From NCBI RefSeq assembly GCF_000526795.1, contig NZ_JAGT01000001.1, forward strand, positions 1,387,001 through 1,451,000: a stretch of 64,000 nucleotides of DNA. Reading direction: 5' to 3'. Shown here piece after piece: positions 2,289-63,434 of the stretch. The position numbers and the translations under genes are program-made. The notes under the pieces were generated by a model, which worked only from the letters and a program-made list of their open reading frames with translations, did no database searches and was not told where the DNA came from. How positions within the stretch are numbered: the first letter of the stretch is position 1; each line of letters opens with the position of its first letter. Source of the stretch: Ruminococcus flavefaciens AE3010. Lineage in GTDB: Bacteria > Bacillota > Clostridia > Oscillospirales > Ruminococcaceae.

Positions 2289-2326
2289 TTTATTTTCCTC
2301 TTAACATTATTCGTTTTATTTTGGGT

Positions 2327-4125: not shown

Positions 4126-4179
4126 AGTATCAATCCTTTGTAAAAATTCCGTCTGCCTGCTGACAGACACATTTAATTT

Positions 4180-40054: not shown

Positions 40055-41383
40055 ATGTCAAGATCTGTAAAAAAATCCATAGGAGCATTTGCGGCAGGCA
40101 TTCTCGTCCTTTTTGTTCTCATCGGCTTTGTTTTTTCATACGGCTGTGTGCGCTTCATAGGCAATAAGTACTGTGAACGCGCAGCTTCCTCAGCCCTCGA
40201 TTTTGCGGCGCTGACCATAAACGCCGACAAGGCAAGATCAAGCTACAAAACAAGGATAAAGTCTGATGACTACGACTCGGTACAGAACAAGATAACCGCA
40301 TATCAGCGCAATAATAACGACATCATCAGCAGGATCTCCCTCGTAAGCTTCAGCAATTCCGCAGGCGTTTATATCTTTGACTCGGGCGGAGCTACCCTTG
40401 GCTCACGCCTTGATTACAACAAGTACACTTCATCTGTAAAAGCCGAGCTGATAAACGGCAGAAGCTCCATGAGCACCTCCGAGAATGGCAGGCTCATAGT
40501 CTACCGCCCTCTGAGAACTGTTGACGACAATCTCTGCGGTACACTGATAGTTGAACTGGAAAAGCCCTTTGAGACCCAGTACTACTACATTATCGCCGTT
40601 GTGTTCGCCGTGCTCCTTCTGCTGGGACTCGTATTTGTGGGTATGCTTCTGCTTTTCCTCAGAAAGAAGATGTTCACTCCCATCAGAAAGATAGCATCTT
40701 ATCTCGATTCACTCAAGAATAATGCTGCCTCCGAAAAGAAGGACAATGACAGCGGCGACAAAAAATCAGGCAAAAAGGAAAGCCCCGACGCTTCCGTGAT
40801 CTTCAATTCGGACCGCGACGACGAGATAGGACAGCTCAGCAGCTCACTAAAGACTCTTCTCGGAGACCTGATAACAGGCGAAAAGACTCTCAATCAGGCT
40901 ATATATGACGCTAATCACGACGGTATGACTCAGCACTGGAACAAGCGCTTCTACCACAACATGGAAGAATCCTTCAGGAAGTGCGAATCCATCTGTTTCA
41001 TTTACTTTGACGTAAACAACCTCAAGCTCATGAACGATACCCTCGGCCACGAAAGCGGCGACTTCGTCATCAAGAGAGCTGCTGATTACATCAGAGGCTT
41101 TATCGGTGACGGTGACTATTGTTTCAGAATGGGAGGCGACGAATTCCTCATTGTAATGACATCAGGCGACGTCAGAAGACTCGATAAGATAATTGATAAG
41201 CTCAACAGCGATGCGCCGTATATACTCAGCAGAAAGACCGATTCCATAAAATGCTCGCTGTCATACGGCTTCTCATACGCAAAGGGCATATTCTCCTACG
41301 ACGCAAAGCTCGCAGAAGCAGAAGACAACATGTACATCAAAAAGACCGAACTCAAACAACTCCTTCAAATGCCTGACAGATAA
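40055..41383 (+). CDS. Membrane diguanylate cyclase
   Basis: A 442-aa protein. Two membrane helices (residues about 10-32 and 175-205) bracket an extracytoplasmic sensor domain of about 145 residues. A HAMP-like segment follows, then a Lys/Asp/Ser-rich stretch and a GGDEF domain (about 285-440). The domain keeps RMGGDEFLIVM and DVNNLKLMNDTLGHESGD, so it should make cyclic di-GMP. An RxxD inhibitory site is absent at the usual position. The start has AGAGG upstream. The next gene begins 6-15 bp after its stop, so the three genes to 44624 form one operon. Confidence 0.9.
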   Translation: MSRSVKKSIGAFAAGILVLFVLIGFVFSYGCVRFIGNKYCERAASSALDFAALTINADKARSSYKTRIKSDDYDSVQNKITAYQRNNNDIISRISLVSFSNSAGVYIFDSGGATLGSRLDYNKYTSSVKAELINGRSSMSTSENGRLIVYRPLRTVDDNLCGTLIVELEKPFETQYYYIIAVVFAVLLLLGLVFVGMLLLFLRKKMFTPIRKIASYLDSLKNNAASEKKDNDSGDKKSGKKESPDASVIFNSDRDDEIGQLSSSLKTLLGDLITGEKTLNQAIYDANHDGMTQHWNKRFYHNMEESFRKCESICFIYFDVNNLKLMNDTLGHESGDFVIKRAADYIRGFIGDGDYCFRMGGDEFLIVMTSGDVRRLDKIIDKLNSDAPYILSRKTDSIKCSLSYGFSYAKGIFSYDAKLAEAEDNMYIKKTELKQLLQMPDR

Positions 41384-44684: not shown

Positions 44685-47600
44685 TCAGTTCTGGAAAGCT
44701 ATACGGAAGAAATTGTAGAGGTGAGCTCTGATACAGTTATCACCGTGATAACCGCCGTTTACATAGTGCCATACATGAGGAACGCCGTTCTTCTCGAAGT
44801 TATTGTGATAGCTTCTGGGATTGTCGCCAACAGTCTGGTCGTTGCTTCCTGCAGTTATCATCAGGAAGTAAGGCTCATTGCTGCTGTCCCACTTGAATGA
44901 GCCTGAAACGCCAGGAGCGGGGCATATAGCACCGATGTAGCCGATCTGATCAGACATCTGCATTCCAATGAGGAGAGACTCGCGTCCGCCCATTGAGAAG
45001 CCTGTGATAGCGGTATTGTCCTTACCTGTGAGAACACTGTAGTTCTTCTCGATCTCAGGCATAAGGTCGTTCTTGAGCTGATTGATGAAGTTGTCGTAAG
45101 CTCTGTTGTTATTATCGTCCATACCTGTAACTGCGTCCTGAGTAGCGCTTGAGTATACATCAGGGAATACACATATCATTTCCTTTGCAGCCCCCTCAGC
45201 GATAGCATTGCCCAGCATCTCGCGGGTATGCATCTCAGCGTTGCCGGTCGTGAGCATTCTGTCAGGATTCTCATAGTAGCCGTGAAGAATGTACATTACA
45301 GGGTACTTCTTATTAGGATCGTAGTTGGGAGGCAGAAGAACGTTGTACTTCTTGGTTCTCTTGCAGGTATTTGAATAGTAGCTCTTCTTCTGTATCTCAC
45401 CGTAAGTTACGCCGTTTTTCTGCTGATTTGCGGAATTAGGCTCTTTTTCAGCGATATTGGACTGAACCTTTGCTGTGAAATCCTTCATTGAAAGATGTGC
45501 AGCAGCTGCAATGGTTGTCGTTGTGGTTGTGGCAGTCGATGTGGTCGTTGCCTTTGTAGTTGTTGCAGCTGTGGTAACTGTCTTGATGTCGTCGGAGTAG
45601 CTCTCAGGGAGCTTTGTGATAGTGCCTAAGAGGAACTTCTGGATAGCAAGTGCGTCGTTGGCAGTTATACCGCCGCCTGCTTCGCTTACGTCTGCGTTAA
45701 ATGCGCCTGTCTCAGAAAGAACATACTTGTTTGGGTTTGCGAGAGACTGCATTATGAGTACAACGTCAGCCATGTCCACGCCGCCGTCGTTGTTAGCGTC
45801 GCCCCACTTGGAGACCTTTGCGTCAAGTGCAGCCTTTGGATCGGCAGTTGTTGTAACGATCGGTGCAGCTGTAGTAGTGGTCGTGGTCGTTGTGGTGGTT
45901 GTAGTAGTTGTTGTTGTAACAGCCTTTGGACCGTCGATAACTGTGCCTGCCTTTGCGACGATTGCCTCGTCGATAGCAAAGTCATCTGTGCCCTCTTCTG
46001 TCTCAACGTAGAGCTTGATGTTGGAGGCGCCCGTTGGGATAGTGTAGTTTGGATTTGCAAGCTGTACATACTCGCCGTTGGAAACTCCGTCTGCGATATG
46101 ATCGTATTTAGTTTCGCCGTCAGCTGTGTATTCCAGTGACAGCATCATGTTGCCAGAACCCTTTGCTGCAACGCTGAAGCTGTAGGACTCGCCTGCCTTG
46201 AATGTAAGGTAGTCGAGTGTCTTCATTGCGCCGTGCCATGCACTTGTTCTGCCAGATACTGTAAGAGCCTTGCTGCCTGCGTATGCTGAACCGCCTGTGG
46301 AAACTGTAGCACCGCCTCTGCTCTCCCAGCTGCCGTTATCGTCTTCGAATGTATCGTGATAATAGTAGCCGTTTGCATCAGGCTCGATAGGCTCGGGAGG
46401 TGTGGGATCCTTGCCGCCCACGAAGCCCTTGCCATCGCTTTCAAGAGCCACAACGAATGTTGAAACGCTGTTTGCGGGGAGCTGTGCTGTGAACGATGAA
46501 CCGCTTGCTGAAACTCCGTTTATGCTTGCGATATTCTCGCTGCCCGATGTTCTGTAGGTCTCAACGCCTGTAACGTTTCTGCCGCTGAGGGTGAACTGCT
46601 GACTTACTGCACCGCTGCCCTTATTGATTGCGACTACTGTAGCCTGTGTGTCGCTGTGCTTATATGCTGATACAAGAATGTTTGTATTTGGCTGCTCTGT
46701 AGCGTCGATACGAACGTCGCCCGGGCGAACCCACTTTGAGAACTGAGCCATTGCATATCCGCGCTTGGATATCTTACCGGTATCCCACATTGGGCTGTAC
46801 TGACGGCGGATATACCACCAAACGTAAGCGTTCATATTACCAACAACGAGAGCATTGTGGATATTCTCAGCTACCTTTACGCCCTCAGGCCAGCGGTCTG
46901 CGGAGTTGTTATCGCTGTTTGGAACGTAAACCTCGGTCATCCATATTTCCTTGCCGCAGTTTTCAAGGGCAGGGAAGTCCATAGCGTTGCGCTGTGTTCC
47001 GTAGAAATGAGTGCCGAACATATCGCAGTTTGCCATAGCCTTGGAATTGTTGAGGATTGCGTTGTAGAAGCTCTTGTTATAGCTGAAACTCTCAGGTGAC
47101 ATCAGCTTTGTTGTGGTGCCGGCTGTTACAGACTTACCGTAGTTTGCAATGAAGTTTGCCGCACGGTCTGGTGTCCATGCTGTCCACTCGCCTGACCAGT
47201 CAGGCTCGTTCTGAACAGAAATGGAGTTGAGCTGAACGCCCTGATTGTTGCAGTACTTGATGAAGTCATTGAGGTGCTGAGCGTACTGAGCTTCTGCGCC
47301 CTGTTTAAGCACATACTGACCGCCTGTTGGACCGCCTGTGCCGTTTGTTCTCATAGAAGCTGGCGGATTCCACGGAGTTGCAAATACAGTTGCGCCTAAT
47401 TTCTGAGCTCTCTGAGCTGTCGGGATAGCGTTCTTCCATGCGTTCTTGTCGTCGCTTACAAAGATACGCAGAATTGTAAGTCCCAACTCGTCGGCGCCGT
47501 TTCCGAAAGCTTTCTGAACCTGAGCTTCCGTCATATCTCCGGGAGCTCCGTTCTGAGCGTTGTAGCTCTGCCACTCAGGGTGGTTCATGCCGCCGAAGCC

Positions 47601-47765
47601 GCGTATCGTCTGGTACTCCTTGTTGGTGTTGATGGTACACGCACCTGCTGCCTCTGCACTGAGAGGTGCCGCTGACGGAAGCGGAAGTGACGAAGCTGTA
47701 CTTGCCAGCATTGCTCCCGCCATGACTGCCGAAACAGCAGTCTTGAATTTGCGAGTAATGTTCAT
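44685..47765 (-). CDS. Cellulosomal GH30 glucuronoxylanase-CBM22-dockerin-CE1 esterase
   Basis: A 1026-aa secreted bifunctional enzyme. Signal peptide (1-40). The GH30 domain (about 41-440) has acid/base Glu187 in NEPD and nucleophile Glu278 in WMTEVY. YVWWYIRRQYSPM is the loop that recognises glucuronic acid in subfamily 8, so it should cleave glucuronoxylan next to glucuronate side chains. A CBM22 follows (about 467-602), then a Thr linker, a dockerin (about 650-722, GDANNDGGVDMADV and NADVSEAGGGITANDA) and a second linker. Last is a CE1 esterase (about 763-1026, GFSMGGRES nucleophile near 920), probably feruloyl or acetylxylan esterase. ATG with GAGGAGG upstream. It lies just downstream of the GH9 gene, same strand. 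Confidence 0.93.
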   Translation of the reverse strand: MNITRKFKTAVSAVMAGAMLASTASSLPLPSAAPLSAEAAGACTINTNKEYQTIRGFGGMNHPEWQSYNAQNGAPGDMTEAQVQKAFGNGADELGLTILRIFVSDDKNAWKNAIPTAQRAQKLGATVFATPWNPPASMRTNGTGGPTGGQYVLKQGAEAQYAQHLNDFIKYCNNQGVQLNSISVQNEPDWSGEWTAWTPDRAANFIANYGKSVTAGTTTKLMSPESFSYNKSFYNAILNNSKAMANCDMFGTHFYGTQRNAMDFPALENCGKEIWMTEVYVPNSDNNSADRWPEGVKVAENIHNALVVGNMNAYVWWYIRRQYSPMWDTGKISKRGYAMAQFSKWVRPGDVRIDATEQPNTNILVSAYKHSDTQATVVAINKGSGAVSQQFTLSGRNVTGVETYRTSGSENIASINGVSASGSSFTAQLPANSVSTFVVALESDGKGFVGGKDPTPPEPIEPDANGYYYHDTFEDDNGSWESRGGATVSTGGSAYAGSKALTVSGRTSAWHGAMKTLDYLTFKAGESYSFSVAAKGSGNMMLSLEYTADGETKYDHIADGVSNGEYVQLANPNYTIPTGASNIKLYVETEEGTDDFAIDEAIVAKAGTVIDGPKAVTTTTTTTTTTTTTTTTAAPIVTTTADPKAALDAKVSKWGDANNDGGVDMADVVLIMQSLANPNKYVLSETGAFNADVSEAGGGITANDALAIQKFLLGTITKLPESYSDDIKTVTTAATTTKATTTSTATTTTTTIAAAAHLSMKDFTAKVQSNIAEKEPNSANQQKNGVTYGEIQKKSYYSNTCKRTKKYNVLLPPNYDPNKKYPVMYILHGYYENPDRMLTTGNAEMHTREMLGNAIAEGAAKEMICVFPDVYSSATQDAVTGMDDNNNRAYDNFINQLKNDLMPEIEKNYSVLTGKDNTAITGFSMGGRESLLIGMQMSDQIGYIGAICPAPGVSGSFKWDSSNEPYFLMITAGSNDQTVGDNPRSYHNNFEKNGVPHVWHYVNGGYHGDNCIRAHLYNFFRIAFQN

Positions 47766-47991: not shown

Positions 47992-50900
47992 TCATGAAAC
48001 AGGTAAACTTTTTACCTTGCCAAGGAGGAACTCCTGTATCGAAAGTGCGTCATTTGTGGTAACGCCCGAGCCCACCTCAAATACATCGGCAGCTGTCCAG
48101 CCCTGCTCGATCACAGCGTTCTTGTCAGAACCGCCCACACCGTACTTGTTCGGATTTGCCAGAGCCTGCATTATCAGGACAACATCACTCATATCCACCT
48201 GTCCGTCGCAGTTTGCGTCGCCGTTATGTACGGGCTTGGCAATTATATCAGAACCTGTAACGGTAGTAGTCGTAGCAGTAACTGTAGTGGTCGTAGCTGC
48301 TGTAGTTGTGGTAGTTGTCGTTACCTCGGAAGCCTTTGCTGCAATGTCCTCAAAGAAAGCCATATCCCACGCAAAGCCTGCCTGCCAGTCAAGAGCATGT
48401 GAATTGGTAGACCACGACTCAACAGTATCGGCATAGCATCTCTGAGGAGCTGTTTCGCTGGTAATGCCAAGGAGACGTATATATTCATCATACAGAGCTG
48501 AGCAGGGACCGCCTGCCAGTACTCCGTCGGGAGCCTTAGGCAGGGTCTTGTCTATCTCATAAGCCCAGTAGGTATCGGTAGGATAATTTACATGCTGCGA
48601 ACCGCAGCCCGTAACATATGAGAAGCCGAGGGCATTTCTTCCGAAGATGTAGTCCATAGCCTGCAAAGCGCCGTTAAGGTACTTGCTGTCTCCTGTTGCG
48701 TCGTAAGCATAAGCCATTACCACAGCATTATTCGTGATCCTGCTGTTGGAGCCGTAATCATAGCCCGAGAAATAAATGTAGTCAATGCTGTAAGGATCGT
48801 ACCAGCCTACCTTTTCATATGGAGCACCCATAGCATTGGTTTTCACGTCATTTTCAGTGTTTACAAACCTATCAGCGGTGATCAAAAGGTTGTCCTTGAT
48901 CTTAGCCTTGTCCGTATCCGAGGTCTTGTCGCTGAGATAAAGTGACAGCGAACCACAGCCCACCTTATTGGCTATGTCGAATGAAGTGTACGCTCCGCGC
49001 GTGCCATAAACATCAGAACGGCTCGGTATGCCGAATGCACGGAACTGCTCATCTTTTCTGACTGAATTGGAGCTGTCATAGTCTTTCAGATAGTCATAAT
49101 AAGCTTCATCGCCCGTAGTCGCAAAAAGCTCGCAGGCTGCCCAGTAAGCCTCGTCCCTGACATCATCATTGCCAGAGTCGGGATCAATAGCTGATAAAGC
49201 GGTGTACTGATCATCATAGTTAAGATTACCGAGACCCTTTTCAAACTCATCTTTATACTTCATAACAGCTTCCCATGACTTCTTTGCACGTTCAATACAC
49301 TCGACCGAGAAATCGTCGTCGATGCCCTTCCACAGACGTGAAGCCTGTGCTGCACAGGCGATCATATTGAACGTTGCGCTGTAGGTAGGCGGACTGATTA
49401 TACGGGGCGCTCTCATGTAGCTTTCGTTATCCTCACTGATATAGTCATACTCAACATAGCCAACGGGAAGAGGACTGAACTCTCTTACCTGACTGTATAC
49501 GAGACCTGCATATTTCTCGCCCCAGACAGTATCCTTTTCGGGATCAACTATCATTCTGAACATGAATTCCAGCTCGTACCTTGCTTCATCAAGTATATCG
49601 GGAGTACCCTTGCAGCTTACTTCCCTGCCGCCCGATAATTTATAGCTGTCGGGAATGTTCATGGTCTTGCCGTCAGTCCATTTGCTGTCGGTGCCGTTCT
49701 TCTTTGACCTCTCATACATATTCTGGAGAAGCCATGCTGCAGTTCCGCCGCTTACAACGCTCTTGCTGTTGCCTTCCGCATCGTACCAGCCTCCCGAAAC
49801 ATCAAGGAGTATATCTTTTTTAATGTCAGATTCAAAAGCCTTGGGCAAGTATGAACTAAACCATCTGTCCTGTACATAAGCCACATCTTTCTTGTTCATG
49901 TCCTTATGGGCAAGCACCTTCTTGTCCCCCGAGGTTATATAATCCTGCTCGATATCGGAGCCCGAGCGCTTCTGATAGTAGTAATTCAGCGCATTTGTGA
50001 GCACTCCGTCGTAGATGTCCCTGCCTATCCTGAACTCCTGACTGAAGTTCATGGAATCCATCCTATCATCGTCCACAACGATCCTGTATGTACCCTCGGT
50101 CTTTACTGCGGAGAAGTCTATGATCTGGCAGTATTCCCCTGCATTTTTGTCAAATCCCGCAGGTACTGTCTTACCTTTGTAAACTTCCTTGTCGTCCTTG
50201 TCGACTACCTTGAAGTCCAGAGCCTCTTTTTCCACAGAGGTCACATAGGTCGCCATTTTATCGGCTGCCGGGAAATAACCCATCTGATTGAGGCGGACAT
50301 CGCTCTTTGGAGTTATAAACATATTGCCGTAATCTTTCCAGCCGCATACTGCTGATGTGGGATCCTCGTCACAGGTAAGGCAATCGATGGACATATCGTC
50401 GAACCATATCTCATCGCCCTCCTTGGCATTTCCCTGATACTTTGTACCCCTTGCATACTGGAAAGTCCACTGAGCGCCCTCAATATCTTTGGTAGGAATG
50501 AATGTGCCCTCAACAGTCTGCCAGTCAGTTGTAAGCTTCAGTGCAGCCGAAGGCCACTTGCCCTCCATATCAGGTCCCATATGCATATCCTTTGTGCCGC
50601 CGTCAAGCTCGAAATACTCCTCAGTGGCACTAAGGTTTCCGATATACGAGCAGAGCTCGAAGCCAGGCCTGCTGCCCTTTACCTTGAAGCTTACCTTGTA
50701 CTCATGGCCTGCCTTGAAATTGAGATTCCTGTGTTTGAACTGGAGATCCCATTTTTCCTTTTCGCCGCCCTCGGGTACTAAGATCTGAATGTGGAATGTG
50801 CCGTCCTCAAAGTCAAACTGCTGCTTTGCAGGGGCGTTGTTGCAGACGTACCACGGCAGAGCTTTTTGCTCGAAAGACGTCTCACCCAGTACCTGAACGG

Positions 50901-50997
50901 CAGAAGCCTCCATTGGTGCGAATGATGCAGCTGCTGATGCCGCGGTCATTGCCAGCGACATAATACCTGCGATTAATTTTTTTGATTTTTTATGCAT
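47992..50997 (-). CDS. Cellulosomal GH9-family protein with degenerate active site
   Basis: A 1001-aa secreted protein. Signal peptide (1-34), CBM4/9-type module (about 35-205), CelD-type Ig domain (about 235-330), GH9 domain (about 335-890), Thr linker, dockerin (about 924-995, GDANCDGQVDMSDV and AADVFEVGSGVTTNDA). The GH9 fold is clear (LNYYYQKRSG, ILDEARYELEFMFRM, MDYIFGRNALGFSYVTG). However, the base motif DAGD reads DAEGN (Asp406 kept, second Asp lost). The C-terminal NE of the acid is Asn-Ser866-His (TNSHALDW). The PHHR substrate motif is replaced by YPTDTYW. It may be a non-catalytic binding protein or a GH9 with altered chemistry. ATG with GGGAGGG upstream. Confidence 0.88.
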   Translation of the reverse strand: MHKKSKKLIAGIMSLAMTAASAAASFAPMEASAVQVLGETSFEQKALPWYVCNNAPAKQQFDFEDGTFHIQILVPEGGEKEKWDLQFKHRNLNFKAGHEYKVSFKVKGSRPGFELCSYIGNLSATEEYFELDGGTKDMHMGPDMEGKWPSAALKLTTDWQTVEGTFIPTKDIEGAQWTFQYARGTKYQGNAKEGDEIWFDDMSIDCLTCDEDPTSAVCGWKDYGNMFITPKSDVRLNQMGYFPAADKMATYVTSVEKEALDFKVVDKDDKEVYKGKTVPAGFDKNAGEYCQIIDFSAVKTEGTYRIVVDDDRMDSMNFSQEFRIGRDIYDGVLTNALNYYYQKRSGSDIEQDYITSGDKKVLAHKDMNKKDVAYVQDRWFSSYLPKAFESDIKKDILLDVSGGWYDAEGNSKSVVSGGTAAWLLQNMYERSKKNGTDSKWTDGKTMNIPDSYKLSGGREVSCKGTPDILDEARYELEFMFRMIVDPEKDTVWGEKYAGLVYSQVREFSPLPVGYVEYDYISEDNESYMRAPRIISPPTYSATFNMIACAAQASRLWKGIDDDFSVECIERAKKSWEAVMKYKDEFEKGLGNLNYDDQYTALSAIDPDSGNDDVRDEAYWAACELFATTGDEAYYDYLKDYDSSNSVRKDEQFRAFGIPSRSDVYGTRGAYTSFDIANKVGCGSLSLYLSDKTSDTDKAKIKDNLLITADRFVNTENDVKTNAMGAPYEKVGWYDPYSIDYIYFSGYDYGSNSRITNNAVVMAYAYDATGDSKYLNGALQAMDYIFGRNALGFSYVTGCGSQHVNYPTDTYWAYEIDKTLPKAPDGVLAGGPCSALYDEYIRLLGITSETAPQRCYADTVESWSTNSHALDWQAGFAWDMAFFEDIAAKASEVTTTTTTTAATTTTVTATTTTVTGSDIIAKPVHNGDANCDGQVDMSDVVLIMQALANPNKYGVGGSDKNAVIEQGWTAADVFEVGSGVTTNDALSIQEFLLGKVKSLPVS

Positions 50998-52447: not shown

Positions 52448-55000
52448 ATGAAAAAATCCATACCCACAATCATGGCAGCTATGCTCGCCCTTTCATCTGC
52501 GAGCGCCATCCCCCTCTCAGCTGCAGAGTCCGACTATCTGCTCCACAGTACCTTTGAAGAAGGCACCGATAAATGGAGCGGCAGAGGCTCGGCATCCGTC
52601 AAGACCGTCTCGGGCACATCACGCTCGGGCGAGTATTCCCTCTTCACCAGCGGACGCGAAAGCTCCTGGAACGGCGCTTCCGTAAGTCTCGGTTCCGACT
52701 TCAAGGCAGGTCAGGACTATGCATTCAGTGCATATGTTATGACAGACGCAGAGGACTCCATCACATTCTATCTCACTCTCCAGTACAGTGACGGCAGCAC
52801 CACAAGCTACCCAAAAATAGCAGAAGTAACAGCAAAAAAAGGCGAATGGGCACATCTTGAAAAGAGCAGCTTCACCATTCCCGCAGGTGCTACAAACATC
52901 AGTCTCTACATCGAGACCGAGGAAAGCAAGTGCAATTTCTACGTTGATGAAGTTGCAGCTGCTCCCAGCGGCACCACCTTCGACGAACCGTCTGCTCCCG
53001 TTAAGATGAACAAGGGCGATATCAACTACGACGGTTGTATCGACTCCTTCGATATCATTCTTGCAAGAAAGGGTCTCATCAATCCATTCACCGACAAGAA
53101 GATGCAGAAGGCTGCCGACGCTGACAGCAACGGCGTTTATGAGATCGCCGACGCAGTTCTCATTATGCAGTTCGTATCAGGCAAGATAAAGGAATTCCCT
53201 GTTGCCGAGCCTGCTCCGGGACAGCAGAAGTACACTACCGAGGAGCTCACCGAAAAGGTACAGAACGAGCTCGTAAACACCGAGCCCAATGACTCACACA
53301 TGGAGAAGCAGGGCGTCAAGTACGGCACTATCAAGAAGGAGACTTACTTCTCCAAGAAGGCCAACAAGAACAAGAACTACAATATCCTGCTCCCTGCCGA
53401 TTACGACGAGAGCAAGCAGTACCCTGTTCTTTATCTGCTCCACGGCTTCTTCGAGAACGAGGACCGTATGATAACAAAGGGCAACGGTACTATGTACACC
53501 AAGCAGATCATCGGCAACGCTATCGCTTCGGGCGAGGCTAAGGACATGATCGTTGTTGTTCCTTTCGTATTCACAAGCGCAACAATGAACGACGCTACAG
53601 GCTTCGCAGATCAGGGCTCAAACGAGGGCTACGACAACTTCGTTGACGATATCGTTGACAGCCTCATGCCTCATATCGAGAGCAAGTACAGCGTTGCAAC
53701 AGGCAGAGAGAACACAGCTGTTACAGGCTTCTCAATGGGCGGACGCGAGTCTCTCCAGATCGGTATGAAGTACGGCGACAAGTTCGGCTACGTAGGAGCT
53801 ATCTGCCCTGCTCCAGGCGCTTCGGGCTCATGGAAGTGGAACAACTCCGACGATCAGCCGTATCTCCTTATGATAACAGGCGGTACTCAGGACGACGTAG
53901 TTGGTCTGAATACTCCCGAGGGCTACCACAATAACTTCAACAAGAACAACGTTCCTCACGTATGGCACGTAGTTCAGGGCGGCCACCACGGCGACGACTC
54001 TATCCACTCAGCTCTCTACTGCTTCGTAAGAGGCATATTCCAGGCAACTGACGGCGGTTCGGGCGGCTCATCTTCACAGACTCCCACACAGACACCTGTG
54101 ACAACTACCACAAAGGCTCCCGATAAGCCCATCACAACAACACAGCCCATCAACACATCAACAGGTCAGCGCAAGTACAGCATGAAGGAACTCACAGAGA
54201 TAGTTCAGAATGCACTTGTAAACAACGAGCCAAACGATTCACACAACAAAAAGAACGGCGTTCAGTACGGCACTATCAAGAAGGAGACCTACTTCTCCAA
54301 GAAGGCCAACAAGAACAAGCCGTACAATATCCTGCTCCCCGCAAACTATGACTCCAGCAAGAAGTACCCCGTGCTTTACCTGCTCCACGGCTTCTTCGAG
54401 AACGAAAACCGTATGATAACACAGGGCAACGGCACCATGTACACCCAGCAGATCATCGGCAACGCTATCGCCGAGGGCGCAGCAAAGGATATGATCGTTG
54501 TTGTTCCTTTCGTATTCACCAGCGCTACCATGAACGACGCTACAGGCTTTGCAGATCAGGGCTCAAACGAGGGCTACGACAACTTCGTTGACGATATCGT
54601 TGACAGCCTCATGCCTCATATCGAGAGCAAGTACAGCGTCGCTACAGGCAGAGAGAACACAGCCGTAACAGGCTTCTCAATGGGCGGACGTGAGTCTCTC
54701 CAGATCGGTATGAAGCACGGCGACAAGTTCGGCTACGTAGGCGCTATTTGTCCTGCTCCCGGTGCTTCGGGCTCATGGAAGTGGAACAGCGAGAGCGAGA
54801 CTCCTTACCTCGTAATGATCACAGGCGGTACAGCTGACGACGTTGTAGGTCTGAATACTCCCGAGGGCTACCACAACAACTTCAACAAGAACAATGTACC
54901 TCACGTATGGCACGTTGTTCAGGGCGGTCACCACGGTGACGACTCTATCCACTCCGCACTCTACTGCTTCGTAAGAGGCATATTCCAGGCAACAGACTGA
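52448..55000 (+). CDS. Cellulosomal CBM22-dockerin-CE1-CE1 esterase
   Basis: An 850-aa secreted protein. Signal peptide (1-26). A CBM22-like module (about 28-175) is related to that of the GH30 protein. The dockerin (about 187-255) is of a different type from the other four (GDINYDGCIDSFDIILARKG and ADADSNGVYEIADAVLIMQF). Two CE1 esterase domains follow (about 260-535 and 575-850), separated by a Thr/Pro linker. Both keep GFSMGGRES and a C-terminal HHGDD, so both should be active on feruloyl or acetyl esters of xylan. The two esterase domains are nearly identical over long stretches, at DNA level too. ATG with AAGGAGG upstream. Confidence 0.93.
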   Translation: MKKSIPTIMAAMLALSSASAIPLSAAESDYLLHSTFEEGTDKWSGRGSASVKTVSGTSRSGEYSLFTSGRESSWNGASVSLGSDFKAGQDYAFSAYVMTDAEDSITFYLTLQYSDGSTTSYPKIAEVTAKKGEWAHLEKSSFTIPAGATNISLYIETEESKCNFYVDEVAAAPSGTTFDEPSAPVKMNKGDINYDGCIDSFDIILARKGLINPFTDKKMQKAADADSNGVYEIADAVLIMQFVSGKIKEFPVAEPAPGQQKYTTEELTEKVQNELVNTEPNDSHMEKQGVKYGTIKKETYFSKKANKNKNYNILLPADYDESKQYPVLYLLHGFFENEDRMITKGNGTMYTKQIIGNAIASGEAKDMIVVVPFVFTSATMNDATGFADQGSNEGYDNFVDDIVDSLMPHIESKYSVATGRENTAVTGFSMGGRESLQIGMKYGDKFGYVGAICPAPGASGSWKWNNSDDQPYLLMITGGTQDDVVGLNTPEGYHNNFNKNNVPHVWHVVQGGHHGDDSIHSALYCFVRGIFQATDGGSGGSSSQTPTQTPVTTTTKAPDKPITTTQPINTSTGQRKYSMKELTEIVQNALVNNEPNDSHNKKNGVQYGTIKKETYFSKKANKNKPYNILLPANYDSSKKYPVLYLLHGFFENENRMITQGNGTMYTQQIIGNAIAEGAAKDMIVVVPFVFTSATMNDATGFADQGSNEGYDNFVDDIVDSLMPHIESKYSVATGRENTAVTGFSMGGRESLQIGMKHGDKFGYVGAICPAPGASGSWKWNSESETPYLVMITGGTADDVVGLNTPEGYHNNFNKNNVPHVWHVVQGGHHGDDSIHSALYCFVRGIFQATD
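53228..54048 (+). repeat. First copy of the duplicated CE1 esterase coding segment
   Basis: This segment matches 54173-54993 at a constant offset of 945 nt. It includes long runs with no difference (for example around 53606-53690 and 54551-54635). It marks an intragenic tandem duplication. Confidence 0.9.
54173..54993 (+). repeat. Second copy of the duplicated CE1 esterase coding segment
   Basis: Partner of 53228-54048. Differences concentrate at the N-terminal edge of the domain and in the loop after GSWKWN. Confidence 0.9.
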
Positions 55001-55178: not shown

Positions 55179-57782
55179 ATGGATAAACAGGGAATCTTTG
55201 ATAATATCGCCGAAAGTCTGGCGCGAAGCTATGATATCATATACTATATCAACGCTGATAACGGCAATTATACCCGATTTACGGGGGCAAAGATATACGG
55301 TGACAATCACATAAAAGAGAACGGAAAGAATTTTTTCAGGGACGCTATGACAAATGCCGAGAAGATCATCGTTCCCAAGGACGTTGAACGTGTAAAGTTC
55401 AAGCTGCAAAAGGAAAATATCATCTCTGCCCTTGAGGTCAAGAAGCTGTACAGCTTCGATTACAGCCTTCTCATCGACGGCAAGCCCAAGTTCGCACGCG
55501 CGACTGTATCATGGGCAAGCGATAATCTCCATCTCATTATCGGCGTAGAGGATACCGACGAGGAGATACGCCGCGAGAACGCTCTTACCGACGTTCTCAG
55601 CCTTGCCAACGAAACATCAAGGCGAGACTCCCTCACAGGTATAAAAAACAAGACTGCATTCAACGAGCTTGCAGACGCCATACAGATGAATATCAACAAC
55701 GGACTGGTGTATCTGCCCTTTGCAGTCATAGTCTGTGACCTCAACGACCTGAAGGTCATAAACGAAACGTTCGCACAGGCAACAGGCGACGGTCATATCA
55801 TCGCAGCATGCAGGCTCATATGCAACATCTTCACACACAGCCCTGTTTTCAGAGTGGGCGGTGACAGATTCGTAGTGTTTCTCAGAGGTTTAGACTATGA
55901 GAACAGGAACGTTCTGTTTGAGGACCTGCACGATCAGGTTCTGGACAATCTGAAATGTCAGGACGGTCCTGTCATAGCCGCAGGCATGGCAGTATACAAC
56001 AGCACCGAGGACAAGAGCTTCAGCGCTGTAATGACACGCGCCGAGAACCTCATGCACGATGACAAAAAAGCGCTCAAAAGCGGCGAGGAAAGCAAGCCCG
56101 CCTTTGAAGTCGGCGACGGTAATGTTTCTATCCCGCTTGAACGCAAGGAAAAGCTGGAAAAGCTGTTCAACGCCTTTTCAATATTCGCAGAGGGAACCTA
56201 TGTATATCTTTGCGATATGCGCTATGATTATTCCCGCTGGTCAAAGAAAGCCGTTGACCTCTTCGGGCTTCCCTCAGAATATATGCTGCACGCAGGCAAG
56301 ATATGGGAGAAGCATATCCACCCCGATGATGTTGAGATATACCATTCGGGCATCGAAGCTATTTTTGCAGGCGGTGCAAATTCCCATGATATGCAGTACA
56401 GAGCCCGCAAGCTCAGCGGCGAATACGATGTCTGTACCTGCCGCGGTGTTGTCCTGTACAGTCCCAAGGGCATACCCGAATACTTCTGCGGAACTATCCG
56501 CAACCACAGCTTGCAGGGCAATATCGACAACCTGACAGGTCTCCGCAATCAGTACGGCTTCTTTGAGGATCTGGAAGCAAGCATACTCAAAGGCGATCAC
56601 TTCAAGGTCATAATCGTAGGCATCGGAAAGTTTGCCGAGATAAACGAGGTATACGGCTATCACTTCGGCAATCTGGTGCTCCAGAGATTCGGCAGACTGC
56701 TCTTTGAGCACGCAGGCAACAAGGGCAGCGTTTACCGTCTCGACGGCACAAAATTTGCAATTATAACTACGACTACAGAAACCGAATCTATATACAACAG
56801 CTATGAGAATTTCCGCAGATATTTCCGCGAGGAATTCTCCATTGACGATAAGTTCATGATGCTGGAGCTCAATGCGGGACTTCTCAGCATAAACAATTTC
56901 AGCATCGACGCCCAGACCGTCTATGCCTGCCTCAACTATGCATACGGCGAGTCAAAGCTCCACAGACAGGGCGACATGGTGGAATTCGGCAGCAGCGTCA
57001 ATCAGGACAAGCGCCACCGCACAGAGGTGCTCCACGTTATCAGGACCTCCATTATGTATGATTATCAGGGCTTCTTCCTGCTGTATCAGCCCGTTGTGGA
57101 CTCACTGACCGAAAAGGTCATAGGCGCAGAGGCGCTCCTCAGGTGGAAAAACGAGGAATACGGCATGGTACCGCCCGACCAGTTCATACCCGTGCTTGAA
57201 AAGGACCCCATTTTCTTTGAGCTTGGTCAGTGGATACTGAAAACTGCTCTCATAGGAGCTAAGAAGCTGAGGGAGAAGTTCCCCGAATTCATCATCAATG
57301 TAAATCTCTCCTACAATCAGCTGGAAAAGCCGAACTTTGTGGATATGGTGCTGGAGGCTCTTGCCGAGACTGAGTACCCGCCCGAGGCACTTTGCCTTGA
57401 AATAACAGAGCGTTGCAGGCTTCTCGATATAGACCTGCTCAAAAACATCATAGTAAATCTCCGCGGAAGAGGCGTAAAAATGGCTCTTGACGACTTCGGA
57501 ACAGGCTTCTCCTCTATCGGACTTGTAAGAAGTCTCCCCTTTGACGTCATAAAGATCGACCGCAGTCTCGTTATGAAGATAGAGGAAAATCCCCAGGATC
57601 GTCAGCTTGTGGGCTCTATTGCAAATTTAGTTGCCAACTACGGCGCAAAGGTCTGCGTAGAGGGCATAGAGACATCTGCCATGAGAGATATACTCCTCAA
57701 CTATGAGGTACACAGCTTTCAGGGATATTATTATTCCCGTCCTATACCTCTTGATGATCTGCTCAACCGAGAAGAAAAATAA
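55179..57782 (+). CDS. Cyclic di-GMP phosphodiesterase with two degenerate GGDEF domains, PAS and EAL
   Basis: An 867-aa soluble protein. Order: N-terminal PAS-like sensor (1-130), a degenerate GGDEF domain (about 145-300, VFRVGGDRFVVFL), a PAS domain (about 325-440), and a second degenerate GGDEF domain (about 445-600, YRLDGTKFAI). The EAL domain (about 615-860) keeps GAEALLRW, INVNLSYNQ, LEITE, LDDFGTGFSS, IKIDRS and EGIE. These are the metal and base residues needed to hydrolyse c-di-GMP. It is thus expected to be a phosphodiesterase opposing the cyclase at 40055. No membrane segment is present. The start has a GGGGGGA ribosome-binding site. Confidence 0.9.
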   Translation: MDKQGIFDNIAESLARSYDIIYYINADNGNYTRFTGAKIYGDNHIKENGKNFFRDAMTNAEKIIVPKDVERVKFKLQKENIISALEVKKLYSFDYSLLIDGKPKFARATVSWASDNLHLIIGVEDTDEEIRRENALTDVLSLANETSRRDSLTGIKNKTAFNELADAIQMNINNGLVYLPFAVIVCDLNDLKVINETFAQATGDGHIIAACRLICNIFTHSPVFRVGGDRFVVFLRGLDYENRNVLFEDLHDQVLDNLKCQDGPVIAAGMAVYNSTEDKSFSAVMTRAENLMHDDKKALKSGEESKPAFEVGDGNVSIPLERKEKLEKLFNAFSIFAEGTYVYLCDMRYDYSRWSKKAVDLFGLPSEYMLHAGKIWEKHIHPDDVEIYHSGIEAIFAGGANSHDMQYRARKLSGEYDVCTCRGVVLYSPKGIPEYFCGTIRNHSLQGNIDNLTGLRNQYGFFEDLEASILKGDHFKVIIVGIGKFAEINEVYGYHFGNLVLQRFGRLLFEHAGNKGSVYRLDGTKFAIITTTTETESIYNSYENFRRYFREEFSIDDKFMMLELNAGLLSINNFSIDAQTVYACLNYAYGESKLHRQGDMVEFGSSVNQDKRHRTEVLHVIRTSIMYDYQGFFLLYQPVVDSLTEKVIGAEALLRWKNEEYGMVPPDQFIPVLEKDPIFFELGQWILKTALIGAKKLREKFPEFIINVNLSYNQLEKPNFVDMVLEALAETEYPPEALCLEITERCRLLDIDLLKNIIVNLRGRGVKMALDDFGTGFSSIGLVRSLPFDVIKIDRSLVMKIEENPQDRQLVGSIANLVANYGAKVCVEGIETSAMRDILLNYEVHSFQGYYYSRPIPLDDLLNREEK

Positions 57783-57866: not shown

Positions 57867-60800
57867 TTAAAGTAATCTCTTCTTGCGTTTTCTGATAAGG
57901 AATACAGCTGCCCCCGTCAGGAGCACGGCTCCGCCGCAGACGAACTTGAACCATGTCTTGTGGGCAAGAAGCCTTACAGCGTTTGTGGTAACAAGGATAT
58001 TCTTGTAGGAATACTCTATCTCGTTGCCTGCCATATCGGTGAGGACTATTTTTACGTCCTGAGAATGCTTTGCATTGGGAATAGTGAATTCGAGATACTC
58101 GTCGTCGATATATCTCGACCTTATCTCCTTGTCATTAAGGAACACCTTTGCTCCCTTTAGCATTATATTATCCGATACGGACATTTTCGCGTCAAGTCTT
58201 TCTCCCTTGTATGCGCTGTTCTCCGTAACATTCAGCGGTATGCAAAGAGGCTCGGTGGTATCCACACAGAATTCAAGGCGTGTATTCTTCTTCTCCGAGG
58301 TGCTGATATTGATATTTCCCGCCTCGTCAACCGAGTGTATGGAAACGGTATATCTGCCGTCCTTCTCAAAGTTCTTGGCGTAGATGATGTATTTGTACTC
58401 GGACCACTCGTCGTCGCCGCCCTTGTACTCCACCTTGTAGTCAACATTGTCCTTGAGCACTGACATTTCCGAATCCTTGGTAATGTATACGCTGTAGGGC
58501 TCGGAGTGCTTATCCGCATTGACCTCAGTGATAACGATATCCTGAGCTCTGGAAATATACTTTCCTACTAAGCTGCCCGTACCCTCGTCCAGCATGAATG
58601 TTGAACCGTATCTGTTTACCGAGAAGCGGAAGTCCGTCTCAACCTTGTTGGAGGCGTTGTCCTTGGCGCTTGCGGTAATGGTATAGATGTCATCGTAATC
58701 GGCATTGTCGGGGATATTGTTCAGTACATACTCGTATCCGTCGTCCTTTTCGCGGAGCTCGCCCTCGACTTCAAGTGACTTTCCTCTGTTGGCGCCCTCC
58801 ATCTTTACCTGTATGCTGTCCTTGTCAAGGTTTGCGTCCTTGAACTGGATATGGGGTCTGATCTCAGCCTTGTTATTAGCCGCACTGACATCGCTGACAG
58901 ATATTTTCGGTGACTGGCTGTCGATACAGAACTTGGCATTATATGCTTCAAGAGTATTTCCTGCCATGTCCTTACCTGTGATATTTACTGTATAGTCGCC
59001 GTCCTTTTCAAACCTGACAGTGGATACGTAATCATTTCCCGACTTCGTCCACTCGGAAGCCTTGGGGAAGTCCTCGGCGCTGTCGTTGTAGGTACCTGTC
59101 ACGACTATCCTTGACGGGTCGAAGTTCTGGTCGGATATCCTGAATGTAGCCGTAGTGGGCTCATTGTAGTAATGATCGTTGGCTATCGATCTGTCGAAGC
59201 CGATATTCATTGCAGGAGCAGTTCTGTCTATGATGAATTCCTTGGAATCGTAAGACTTAGCCTCTCTGCCGCACATATCCTTAAAGCTTGCAGTAAGTCT
59301 GTATGTGCCGTCATTGTCAAAGGCTATCTCAGCCTGATATGTAGCGCTGTCCGTACCCTCTGTGCCGCTTACGAGCCGCCAGTCCAGCTGTCTGCTGGTG
59401 TTGTTTACTCTTATATTGGCAAGAGACTTGTCGAAGTTTCTCTCGTTTATGGTGATGACAGCACGTCTTGATGCCTTGAATATCTGCTTGAACTCGCTGT
59501 CCGCCGATCCGTTTCCGTCGGTGAACACAACATTCATAACAGGGTCGGTCTTGTCTATGCTGTATCTTCTGCGGTCATAGGTATGATCCTGATCATCGGG
59601 ATTGCCCGCTCTGTCGCCGAAGCTTACGAAAGCGACGCTGTTGTTTGAATTGCCTGTGAGCAGGATATCTCTCTCCAGACCGTTCACAAGGTTGATATCC
59701 CTGCTGTCCTCGTCAATGCTCCAGAGCTCCGCTTCATTTCCGCTGAGCTCTCCCGACTCGTTCACATACAGATACCTGTCCGCAGTTCCGCTTGATGATA
59801 TATAAACATTTGATATACCCGAGAAGTTTTCCTTAACGGTGAGCTTTGCGCTTATATCGTCGCTGTACAGCGGGAATCCGTTTATGTCCTTATACTGAGT
59901 TTCGGGGAGCTCCAGCCTGATATGGGCGTTCTCCCTGTGATCGTCGGTGTTTTCAACGGCGAACAGAGCCGTCTCGAATACATCTGACTCCCTGCCCATA
60001 CAGCTGACAGCCTTGACTCTCATAAAGCCCTTGAATCTGTCGGGAACAGTTACTGTCCAGCTGTCCGAGCTGCCGTTCCTGCTTATCTTGGGTACCAGAG
60101 CGCTTGGAGTACCGTCGCTGTTCACAAGCGACGCTTCGATACGGTCAAGACCTGCTCCCGCACCGTTGCGGTTCACGGAGACCTGTACATCAGCCTGTTC
60201 TCTTGCGAAATAAACATAGCCGTAGCGCTCATCGCGTCTGAGGTCGGCACCGTCTGCATATACGCTTTCGACAGTGGGCTCCGAAAGGTCTATCCAAACC
60301 TTTGTTTCCCTCTCTTCGCTTTCATTTCCCGCATAGTCGTTTGTGCTGAGCTTTACATTTATTGCTCCGTCATTTCTGCTGAACTCTCCAAGCTCCGATA
60401 TAAGAACCTTACCGTCAGCACTGACAAGCTTTGCCTTGAACCTGTCGGGGTCCTGAACTGCTTCAAATAGGATATTGTATCCGCCGTTTTTGAGGGCAGT
60501 CTTGTCGATACCGCTCTGAGCGTCAACATTCACGGTGCGGTGATGACCGTTTATATCCAGCTTCAGCTCCCTGATGCCCGAGCATACCAGAGAATTGGGA
60601 TCCTCAGCCGCAACAGCTATCTTCACATCGGAGTAAGCCTTGTACCATTCCTTGCCGCCGTCATTCTCATCTATGTACGGCTCAGCGGTATCCGACACGT
60701 TCTTCACTGAGCAGGTGGGAGCCGTATCATCGATAATGATATAGAAGCCGCCGTATTTGCTGTCCTTGCTCTTCATTACAGCGGAGTTCCCCACGCTGTC

Positions 60801-63434
60801 CATTGCATATATAGTGATATAGGACTTGATATTCACGTCCTTCACAGCATCGCTGACGATATTGAAGATATACATTCCGTTCTGCTGAGTCATGCTCTCT
60901 GCGGAGTCTTTCTCGTCGCCGAAGTATATCTTTACATCGTTTACGCCCGAGCCTTTTACCGAGGACTCTATATCGTTTACAGCTACGCTGATGACGCTTC
61001 CTGCTTTGAGAACGTGGACATCTGCGTTATTGCTGTCCTTTATGACAGTATCCCCTGAGATGTTTATTTTGTTATCCGCAACAGCAGGCGGTGCGCCGTC
61101 TATCTTTACCCTTATCTGCTTCTTGCTGTTATTGTCCCAGCTTGAATTATTGCTGTCGTCATAAGCGAAAACACTGAGCATTTCGTCGATCATTTCATTT
61201 TCATGAGCTGATTCCGCCTTGACAGACACTCTGAATTCCTTTGCCGCTCTGTCATAAGTAAGAACAGGCATACACTTTGAAGCTCTGACAGGAGAGTTCT
61301 GTGCTTCCATGTAAGCCCTTACTACGCCGACGTACTTGTCGCACTGAGCCCTGAAAGAATCTATCTTAGCCTGATCGGGCTCGTCCTTTTCGATCTCGGC
61401 AGCTATCTTTGCGTCATAGTATTCCGTCATATCGTCAATGAGAGAAGCGGAATGCTCCCTGAGGAGCTTGCGGTAATAGCCGTCATAATTGAGCTGATCG
61501 CTGTAGCTGCTGTTTATGTCGGACAGCTTCAGCTTTGAAAGCTCTGCCACCGCCGCATTATACTTTGCTCTCATGTCGGGAGTTTCCACATAGCCCTTGA
61601 TATTGGCTGTATCTCCCCAGCCCTTTGCGGGTCTGTCGAATCTGTAGTCTCCCACAACAACGGAATATATCTCACTGCAGTCAACGGTCTCCTTGTTGAT
61701 GTAGTACTTGTATATATCAACTATCTCACTCTCGTCAAAGGTGAGATCGCCGCTTTCTGCAATGGGACAGTCCTCCTTGTCGGTTATCCTCATGGCAAAG
61801 GACATACCTTCCCTGCCCACCCATGAATCGGAGTTGTGCCCGCGGGTGAATTCTACCTTGGGAGCTGTCTTGTCGCTGTAAAAGCATATTATGCCGTCAA
61901 GTCCGTCAATGAGTGAATCTGTTTCGCCCTTGCTGATAATATTCTTGACGATGTACAGCGCAGACTCGGAGCTGTCCGTCATGGACTCGGTAAACTCTCT
62001 TGATGACTCTCCTATGTAGAATTTTTTATTCTCAACGCTGTTTCCGCTGCCTTTCCTGAATACGTCATAGAGGAGCGTGCTTCCGTCAAAGAGGGAGGTA
62101 AAGTCCATAAGGTCCACAAGAGCGTCCTTGGAGCTTACGGAATAGCAGTTCTTATTCCTCTCGAAAAGGTCTGCCTCGGGCTTGAAAACATAGGCATTGC
62201 CGTTATCGGCAAGCTTTCTGTAGACCAGCTTGATATTGGTCACATCATAGTGATATGGTATCACCTTTGCTCTTTGTCCGTTTACAAGAGCGTCATACAT
62301 CTCGGCAAGACATTCCGTTGTTTCGCCGTCATAGGTATAGCTGCTGAGGCAGTAACCGTCGCCTGCAAGATAAGGTACGCTCACCGTACAGCCAGAATCA
62401 GTATCCAATGTGACAGGTACCTTATAATTCTTGTATACCTGTGCGTTTGTCTCGTCAAATGAAGCAAAAGCCGTTATACTGCTGTCAATGCCCTTAATGG
62501 TGAATACGCCTTTATTTATGTAGCTGAAATCGGGCTCCTGAGTTAAGACAGAACAGTTCACCTCATTATTGTACAGCTCTCTTATCTCGTCCTTATCACC
62601 GCATTTTATGTACAGAGCCTGCTTGCCGTCAGTCTTTAAGCTGACGCTGCTTACTTCTTTCCATTCAAAGCTTCTGCGCTCGGTGGATACGCCGTTCACA
62701 AGAACGTCGAACACAGTACCGTCAACATCCAGAGAAAAAGTTCTCGGTGATACGGTATGTCGGTCTCTGTTCACAATGAGCTCATAGCCGTCATTGTAGG
62801 GATTATCGGTACTTACGCTTACGGGAGCGCTGACAGGTACTCTTACGGGCTCAGTGCCGTTATCGATGATATATAAGTCCGAGGGTACGAATTCAAGGTC
62901 AGTCCCGCCCTTGCAGAAGCCGTCACTGATGTCATCGCCCTCGCTGTTTCTCATGGATATCCTTTCATCGCCGCCGAAGCCGCTGACCTTGTAATAGGTA
63001 TCAAATACAAGGGTGAAGCCGTTCTCCGAGCTGATCCTGAACTTCATATCCTCTGCGTTATTGTATACGTCATTCCTGTTCAGAACAGGCAGACTGCCAA
63101 CAGTAATACTTCCCGCACCTGTGGACTCATCAAAGCTATGAGCCTTTATTTCGGTACGGAACACCTTTTTCATTATATCAATGAACGTATCATCATCAAT
63201 ATCACTGTTATTGATCATTACAGTATATACCACATCATTACTGCCGTCATCGCTGTTTTCCACAGGCGGCGGGACCACGTCATCAGGTGCGTCTACAGTA
63301 ACAGGCTCAACGCTCATTACAGCCGCAGATGTTTCAGCGCCTGCCGCAGGTACACTGTATGCTGAATTTGCAGTAAAAGCAAGTGCCGCCACAAAAGCGA
63401 GCTTTCTTTTTAGATCAAATCTGCCGTTATTCAC
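57867..63434 (-). CDS. Giant membrane-anchored surface protein with Ig-like repeats
   Basis: A 1855-aa exported protein. The signal peptide (1-34) is followed by non-repetitive beta-rich domains and a helical insert near 610-700 (YNAAVAELSKLKLSDINSSY, DDMTEYYDAKIAAEIEKDEP). From about 780 there are about ten bacterial Ig-like domains ending in the pattern IDxTAP/IDKTDPVMNV/IDSQSPKISV, typical of Ig repeats in surface adhesins. A C-terminal membrane helix (KFVCGGAVLLTGAAVFLI) and a basic tail (RKRKKRLL) anchor it. No LPXTG sorting signal is visible. The start is GTG (63432-63434) after AAAGGAGG, overlapping the stop of the upstream gene (GTGA). Probable role: adhesion or surface scaffolding. 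Confidence 0.8.
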   Translation of the reverse strand: MNNGRFDLKRKLAFVAALAFTANSAYSVPAAGAETSAAVMSVEPVTVDAPDDVVPPPVENSDDGSNDVVYTVMINNSDIDDDTFIDIMKKVFRTEIKAHSFDESTGAGSITVGSLPVLNRNDVYNNAEDMKFRISSENGFTLVFDTYYKVSGFGGDERISMRNSEGDDISDGFCKGGTDLEFVPSDLYIIDNGTEPVRVPVSAPVSVSTDNPYNDGYELIVNRDRHTVSPRTFSLDVDGTVFDVLVNGVSTERRSFEWKEVSSVSLKTDGKQALYIKCGDKDEIRELYNNEVNCSVLTQEPDFSYINKGVFTIKGIDSSITAFASFDETNAQVYKNYKVPVTLDTDSGCTVSVPYLAGDGYCLSSYTYDGETTECLAEMYDALVNGQRAKVIPYHYDVTNIKLVYRKLADNGNAYVFKPEADLFERNKNCYSVSSKDALVDLMDFTSLFDGSTLLYDVFRKGSGNSVENKKFYIGESSREFTESMTDSSESALYIVKNIISKGETDSLIDGLDGIICFYSDKTAPKVEFTRGHNSDSWVGREGMSFAMRITDKEDCPIAESGDLTFDESEIVDIYKYYINKETVDCSEIYSVVVGDYRFDRPAKGWGDTANIKGYVETPDMRAKYNAAVAELSKLKLSDINSSYSDQLNYDGYYRKLLREHSASLIDDMTEYYDAKIAAEIEKDEPDQAKIDSFRAQCDKYVGVVRAYMEAQNSPVRASKCMPVLTYDRAAKEFRVSVKAESAHENEMIDEMLSVFAYDDSNNSSWDNNSKKQIRVKIDGAPPAVADNKINISGDTVIKDSNNADVHVLKAGSVISVAVNDIESSVKGSGVNDVKIYFGDEKDSAESMTQQNGMYIFNIVSDAVKDVNIKSYITIYAMDSVGNSAVMKSKDSKYGGFYIIIDDTAPTCSVKNVSDTAEPYIDENDGGKEWYKAYSDVKIAVAAEDPNSLVCSGIRELKLDINGHHRTVNVDAQSGIDKTALKNGGYNILFEAVQDPDRFKAKLVSADGKVLISELGEFSRNDGAINVKLSTNDYAGNESEERETKVWIDLSEPTVESVYADGADLRRDERYGYVYFAREQADVQVSVNRNGAGAGLDRIEASLVNSDGTPSALVPKISRNGSSDSWTVTVPDRFKGFMRVKAVSCMGRESDVFETALFAVENTDDHRENAHIRLELPETQYKDINGFPLYSDDISAKLTVKENFSGISNVYISSSGTADRYLYVNESGELSGNEAELWSIDEDSRDINLVNGLERDILLTGNSNNSVAFVSFGDRAGNPDDQDHTYDRRRYSIDKTDPVMNVVFTDGNGSADSEFKQIFKASRRAVITINERNFDKSLANIRVNNTSRQLDWRLVSGTEGTDSATYQAEIAFDNDGTYRLTASFKDMCGREAKSYDSKEFIIDRTAPAMNIGFDRSIANDHYYNEPTTATFRISDQNFDPSRIVVTGTYNDSAEDFPKASEWTKSGNDYVSTVRFEKDGDYTVNITGKDMAGNTLEAYNAKFCIDSQSPKISVSDVSAANNKAEIRPHIQFKDANLDKDSIQVKMEGANRGKSLEVEGELREKDDGYEYVLNNIPDNADYDDIYTITASAKDNASNKVETDFRFSVNRYGSTFMLDEGTGSLVGKYISRAQDIVITEVNADKHSEPYSVYITKDSEMSVLKDNVDYKVEYKGGDDEWSEYKYIIYAKNFEKDGRYTVSIHSVDEAGNINISTSEKKNTRLEFCVDTTEPLCIPLNVTENSAYKGERLDAKMSVSDNIMLKGAKVFLNDKEIRSRYIDDEYLEFTIPNAKHSQDVKIVLTDMAGNEIEYSYKNILVTTNAVRLLAHKTWFKFVCGGAVLLTGAAVFLIRKRKKRLL

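Follow-up and report, generated by a model that had tools for sequence, protein, structure and literature searches.

The window, a stretch of 64,000 nucleotides of Ruminococcus flavefaciens AE3010 DNA, encodes what is probably a pseudo-cellobiohydrolase: a secreted binding subunit that docks into the cellulosome, performs no catalysis and has a pocket specific to its lineage. As read from its sequence, the protein descends from an active lineage of the CbhA/CelK-type cellobiohydrolases; it has lost the acid, the base and many residues of the cleft, and has retained the fold, the CBM4 and the dockerin. The clade to which it belongs is under purifying selection, and comparison of its members indicates that the old cleft was rebuilt type by type and then largely held. 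This pattern suggests that in the groove of the window protein and its relatives grip replaces cutting.

Domain architecture and lost catalytic residues

The gene and its parts map as follows.

47992..50997, reverse strand: whole open reading frame, CBM4-Ig-pseudoGH9-dockerin, 1001 residues
50902..50997, reverse strand: signal-peptide-like N-terminal segment, residues 1-32, read from the sequence
50458..50883, reverse strand: CBM4, residues 39-180 (Pfam E 1.4e-9; fold match to the CBM4 of CbhA/CelK)
50065..50307, reverse strand: Ig-like CelD_N domain, residues 231-311 (Pfam E 2e-23)
48367..50013, reverse strand: GH9 barrel, residues 329-877, putatively non-catalytic by its residue content
49768..49782, reverse strand: former base motif DAGDH, here DAEGN, residues 406-410, with Gly409 in place of the base Asp
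48565..48582, reverse strand: former PHHRYW motif, here PTDTYW, residues 806-811
48385..48408, reverse strand: former acid motif, here TNSHALDW, residues 864-871, with Ser866 in place of the acid Glu
48001..48237, reverse strand: group-1 dockerin at the C terminus, residues 921-999

The window protein belongs to GH9 (Pfam PF00759) by descent and fold, since the profile covers nearly the whole model and a solved GH9 fold was matched. It has the CBM4-Ig-GH9 order of the CbhA/CelK subfamily, and it carries a dockerin, the mark of a cellulosomal subunit. A preliminary description made from the DNA alone had listed the GH9 fold, signal peptide, CBM, Ig domain, dockerin and an intact frame, and the same parts were found here, the signal peptide by reading. 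The closest solved relatives, the GH9 cellobiohydrolases CbhA and CelK of C. thermocellum (1ut9, 1rq5), have the domain order in common with the window protein, whereas the latter is without base and acid, has the Trp, His and Arg residues of the cleft replaced, and scores 413.8 bits against the CelK equivalog model (NCBIfam NF049990), short of its cut-off of 1700 bits.

In the alignment, CbhA residues D383, D386 and E795 correspond to D406, G409 and S866 of the window protein. We take D383 to be the auxiliary Asp and D386 the base, from general knowledge of GH9, and the acid E795 is flagged by a Glu-to-Gln change in structure entry 1rq5. The auxiliary Asp is thus kept as Asp406, and both the base and the acid are gone. 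The preliminary description had reported changes in just these base and acid motifs and in the PHHR substrate motif; its observation was borne out as a whole, with the auxiliary Asp staying in place. Moreover, R505, P509, M528, I675, Y748, T807 and T809 stand where intact CbhA-like relatives have near-invariant H, W, W, W, W, H and R. An intact Asp or Glu shifted into the active site from a neighbouring loop by misalignment was ruled out, as the motif aligns ungapped between invariant residues on both sides (Glu408 is taken up below with the alternative that it concerns). A sequencing error is unlikely, because the near-identical P0001, with 6 differences over 1001 residues, shares the altered motifs.

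The AE3010 genome holds 13 GH9 genes (14 matches, two of them in what is seemingly one frame of 914 residues). The Asp-Asp-Glu triad (DDE) is kept in 10 of these and missing in three, namely the window gene (D/G/S), L013 (T/N/S) and L012 (K/D/Q). The L012 type (454-4146 and kin, about 1230 residues) has a long C-terminal extension that reads as an SH3-like stretch followed by a further domain. The intact paralogue L009 (G000:C1:3095122-3098208), an Ig-GH9 protein with a dockerin, matches the window protein end to end at 49% identity and keeps DAGDHGK, PHHR and NEVTINW, which the window protein does not.

Relatives of the protein and the rebuilt cleft

Relatives were gathered from a protein search (best 120 of 1828 hits), from genome searches and from one scan of a genome collection with patterns of the window protein, so the sample leans towards that protein and its frequencies are not a census. 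The alignment of 224 CbhA-like rows was reduced to 181 by removing five short fragments (two pieces each of L017 and L090, and L073_3487) and 38 rows more than 95% identical to a kept row; 5 of 112 open reading frames were removed as duplicates. P0001, the distant GH9s of the same genome (L001-L004, L006-L008 and L010) and L011, L014, L101 and L104 were excluded from the main set. Strict triad counts refer to 178 rows, three whose triad contains a gap or an X being excluded.

Among the 181 sampled relatives, 99 have the DDE triad (CbhA counted) and 82 have another, in 44 complete combinations and three incomplete ones; the base or acid carboxylate is missing in 61 of the 178 scorable rows. The preliminary description had called for a search for Ruminococcus orthologues with like changes, and this search placed the window protein inside a clade of 50 rows without any DDE member (starred support of 100; FastTree, 181 rows, motif columns removed). 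Base or acid is missing in 43 of the 48 scorable rows of this clade and both in 31, and D or E is retained at both sites in five. Grouping through convergent cleft changes alone was rejected for this clade, since its 24 sampled rows stay together with starred support of 99 in an IQ-TREE analysis of 73 selected rows from which every cleft loop was deleted. In that tree the clade is nested among intact cellobiohydrolases, and the label "intact" needs eight changes, seven of them forced by starred branches; both tree runs are quick methods, and change counts alone cannot separate loss from regain. The placement of the non-DDE rows indicates that further losses happened among related ruminococci outside the clade, where such rows come from Ruminococcus and from metagenome-assembled genomes named only Oscillospiraceae or Clostridiales.

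Five of six named R. flavefaciens assemblies in the collection scan, which was not exhaustive, hold a member of the window protein's clade: YAD2003, YL228, MA2007, UBA1190 and ATCC 19208, the last counted through L051, whose match values are the same as those of the clade member L016. Strain Y1 has an intact gene only, among the matches listed. Several further arrangements were seen. At locus L072 (5677-19964) an intact CbhA-like GH9 gene (DDE) heads a tandem array whose three further genes have EDE, EDD and EGG, and mixed arrays resembling it occur in L076 and L080. P0016 combines a DNS-type base motif with TNS-type PHHR and acid regions and looks chimeric, possibly through recombination between paralogues or as an artefact of metagenome assembly. 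A separate, R. albus-like lineage (P0080, P0084, P0087, P0089, P0108 and P0117) has the first Asp changed to Ala and keeps the base Asp, Glu or Asp as the acid, and PHHR or PHHK; judged by these residues, it may be active with altered chemistry.

The CBM4-Ig-GH9 order is also found in R. albus 8 Ra3055, Ra1589 and Ra1743, which end in CBM37 or in nothing where the window protein ends in a dockerin; in the portion of that study available to us, all three of these cellobiohydrolases were active on cello-oligosaccharides when tested (PMC5066209). By analogy with these proteins, which are compared here by architecture and activity rather than by triad, a non-DDE triad is no proof of inactivity outside the window protein's clade.

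To describe the cleft, positions were called conserved at 90% or more among 98 intact relatives and lost if kept in less than 80% of the clade. By this measure 93 of 202 conserved GH9 positions are lost, compared with 10 of 34 in the CBM4 and none of 13 in the Ig domain, and the lost GH9 positions cluster in the former active-site loops. In a structure model the 93 lost positions are predicted to comprise 59 in coil, 9 in strand and 25 in helix, and the 109 kept positions 40, 11 and 58, respectively. The clade replaces Trp509, Trp528, Trp675 and Trp748 (Tyr stands at 748 in 28 rows, at 509 in 12 and at 528 in 15); His505 and His807 are gone, His808 remains in 15 rows and Arg809 in 10, and Asn872, present in 98 of 98 intact relatives, is Gln in 48 of 48 clade rows. 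Overall, Tyr, Ser and Asp become more frequent in the cleft loops, and Gly, His and Trp less so: per protein, the clade has 10.3 Tyr, 9.6 Gly and 1.8 His in the cleft versus 6.1, 20.6 and 5.9 in intact relatives. The remaining 32 non-DDE rows, with 6.8 Tyr per protein, do not show the gain of Tyr. Every CBM4 position that is aromatic in at least 80% of intact relatives is still aromatic in at least 60% of the clade rows. If W509, W528, W675, W748, H505, H807 and R809 of the intact relatives are cellulose contacts, as we take them to be, their replacement means that the GH9 domain is probably no cellulose binder of the ancestral type.

Selection on the cleft and rival explanations

The window gene has an open frame, and so do nearly all relatives in the genome search, the TNS-type relative L017 having an in-frame stop. 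Selection was estimated from 29 greedily chosen close pairs, with substitutions counted by a Nei-Gojobori-style method; the pooled values omit L091/L092, the one pair that mixes triads (DDE/NDE). The ten non-DDE pairs gave dN/dS values of 0.18-0.35. Pooled, they gave 0.31 for the non-cleft part of GH9 and 0.25 for the cleft itself; the four pairs from the window protein's clade gave 0.24 and 0.17, and the 18 intact pairs 0.25 and 0.05, respectively. The old cleft has therefore been freed from extreme constraint, yet is still constrained. With its catalytic residues gone and the gene held by selection, the window gene fits what is understood by a pseudoenzyme, to the extent that inactivity can be read from sequence.

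We also compared cleft dN with dN of the rest of the domain for every pairing of the 15 clade rows for which DNA was available (105 pairs), leaving out motif codons and assigning to the TNS type one row that lacks the third residue. The 19 same-triad pairs had ratios of 0.49-1.45 (median 1.03), the 86 different-triad pairs 1.34-1.98 (median 1.65), and 1225 intact pairs a median of 0.31; the pairs are non-independent, the same-triad and different-triad ranges overlap slightly, and the loops were picked after conservation had been seen. At dS 0.9-1.5, five same-triad pairs gave 1.00-1.26 and 23 different-triad pairs at least 1.39. This looks like discrete types of cleft that changed together and were then kept. 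Positive selection was not supported in a comparison of the window gene with eight relatives (cleft dN/dS 0.28-0.59, dS about 0.9-1.9), and we make no claim of it because the loops were chosen post hoc, the pairs are non-independent and dS between types is near saturation.

These data bear directly on the rival that survives best, in which the Ig and GH9 domains are an inert spacer, kept for folding and for presentation of the CBM4 and dockerin, with a cleft drifting under mild structural constraint. The Ig domain is indeed the best-kept part and the CBM4 the next, and in the clade, unlike in active enzymes, the cleft and the remainder of the domain evolve at similar rates. Yet cleft dN/dS within types (0.17-0.25) is far below 1, pairs that differ in triad show a higher cleft-to-rest ratio than same-triad pairs even at dS 0.9-1.5, and holding more than 500 residues for so long would be costly. 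We consider this explanation unlikely.

The active site could instead have been re-sited, with new carboxylates at positions 408 and 870 that would work on an altered substrate or coordinate a metal. In the window protein these are E408, next to the lost base, and D870, four residues past the lost acid. Within the clade, D or E occupies position 408 in 37 of 50 rows and position 870 in 37 of 48, and none of 98 intact relatives has it at either; among the 31 rows without acid and base it occurs at 408 in 29, at 870 in 24 and at both in 22. However, Asp at the equivalent of 870 is also found in ordinary acid-keeping GH9s, such as L001 of the same genome (NEVTIDYNA), and of the 43 rows without acid or base, 15 are without the full new pair and two have neither residue. 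The conserved Trp, His and Arg of the cleft are replaced as well, and shared descent alone can yield the association of carboxylates, so that we regard a new active site as quite improbable.

Similarly little weight falls on a decoy or antagonist whose cleft would bind a plant cellulase inhibitor, a rival's enzyme, or a phage or host protein; a decoy role of inactive beetle GH28 proteins is put forward in the part of that report at hand (PMC7500146). Two observations speak for such a protein: the cleft varies between types, becoming richer in Tyr, Ser and Asp, and the gene diverges faster than its surroundings. L048 of R. flavefaciens YL228 is syntenic with the window over nine genes, and the eight neighbours (some aligned partly) are 74-88% identical with dN/dS 0.13-0.20 and dS 0.57-0.95, compared with 63%, 0.28 and 1.04 for the counterpart of the window protein, in which dN is also higher and cleft dN is 1.85 times that of the rest (bootstrap 1.34-2.54). 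Since its dS is slightly higher than that of its neighbours, replacement by a divergent copy is possible. Between AE3010 and YL228 the TNS genes are 70% identical and the KDQ and intact L009 genes 91% each, with dN/dS 0.20-0.21. Against the decoy, no partner is in sight, and both the CBM4 and the carbohydrate enzymes encoded nearby suggest a link to plant cell walls.

Finally, a decaying gene would account for the lost catalytic residues and for the stop in L017, but is very improbable given the open frames, the low dN/dS of the non-DDE pairs and the kept core and dockerin; the view of the preliminary description, that the protein is selected and non-catalytic or re-purposed rather than randomly decayed, is supported on the same grounds.

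Genomic surroundings and proposed role

Two dockerin-bearing neighbours frame the gene.

44685..47765, reverse strand (that of the window gene): downstream neighbour with GH30-like, CBM, dockerin and esterase domains
52448..55000, forward strand: neighbour with CBM, dockerin and two esterase domains, syntenic in L048

A phosphoesterase gene stands between the window gene and the two-esterase protein. Genes related to the GH30-like neighbour accompany clade members in L047, L048 and L049 and are absent near those in L045, L050, L051 and L052, the other loci being too short to judge. These neighbours are the sole hint, and a weak one, at the class of ligand. Genes for a GGDEF protein (40055-41383) and a PAS-GGDEF-EAL protein (55179-57782) also lie beside the cellulosomal genes, syntenic in L048, and hint at cyclic-di-GMP signalling tied to fibre degradation; 57867-63434 encodes a protein of 1855 residues with bacterial Ig-like matches only.

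As a non-catalytic binding subunit, the protein would plug through its dockerin into a scaffold of the ScaA/ScaB type, and the CBM4 would hold it on glucan. The rebuilt pocket would bind a plant cell wall ligand, perhaps decorated hemicellulose because of the GH30-like and esterase neighbours, a guess at ligand class that draws on these neighbours and on loop composition. The protein would thus target or position the complex and leave cellulose uncut. Group-1 dockerins of strain FD-1, one CBM-GH9-Doc protein included, bound ScaA and ScaB cohesins according to the part of the study available (PMC5301203). The preliminary description had suggested a cellulose-binding scaffold part or an enzyme with a new mechanism. 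Its direction was right and its interpretation stands in part: the CBM4 and dockerin of a scaffold part are kept, but the residues taken for cellulose contacts are replaced, and a new mechanism is weakly favoured by D or E at 408 and 870 in many members, but finds no acid/base pair common to the whole clade.

Non-catalytic proteins that keep a hydrolase fold, have lost catalytic residues and serve a new, known or proposed, role include the GH18 chi-lectins, the xylanase inhibitor XIP, alpha-lactalbumin and Klotho, none of them GH9 or cellulosomal. Inactive GH45 (PMC6509783) and GH28 (PMC7500146) proteins of beetles, as described in the available parts of these reports, likewise keep the hydrolase fold and have lost catalytic residues, but they belong to other folds and organisms and are neither GH9 nor cellulosomal. 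In literature searches made mostly at the level of listed records, we recognised no report of inactive GH9s in cellulosomes. The available portions of PMC2721979, PMC2930009, PMC4081043, PMC6509783, PMC5831590, PMC7500146, PMC8865330, PMC5301203, PMC3672088 and PMC5066209 do not mention lost catalytic residues in ruminococcal GH9s, and those of the papers on FD-1, on six strains and on strain 007 treat CBM4-GH9 proteins as enzymes. None of the expression records could be tied to the window gene. A CBM4-Ig-GH9-Doc gene of FD-1, ORF01133, is given with a 6.60-fold change in the accessible part of PMC2930009; it is probably the intact gene, because it follows a GH9-CBM3 gene, as the intact L009 adjoins the GH9 gene L004 in AE3010 (L004 being assumed to have the CBM3).

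We propose tentatively, and as a possibility that falls somewhat short of the probable, that inactive cellobiohydrolases have radiated within ruminococcal cellulosomes and that their clefts have been turned type by type into discrete ligand sites, forming a variable, non-catalytic "reader" of the plant wall, with like losses repeated in other branches of the family. Judged from their residues, a number of rumen Ruminococcus "GH9" database entries are probably not enzymes of that kind, and cellulase counts from rumen genomes may therefore be inflated. The family offers a clean case in which to study a possible change from enzyme to binder, with intact sister genes at hand. If the pockets bind, they represent many natural variants of a binding site on one barrel, and a cellulosome that ranks among the most elaborate known may use ex-enzymes to steer itself.
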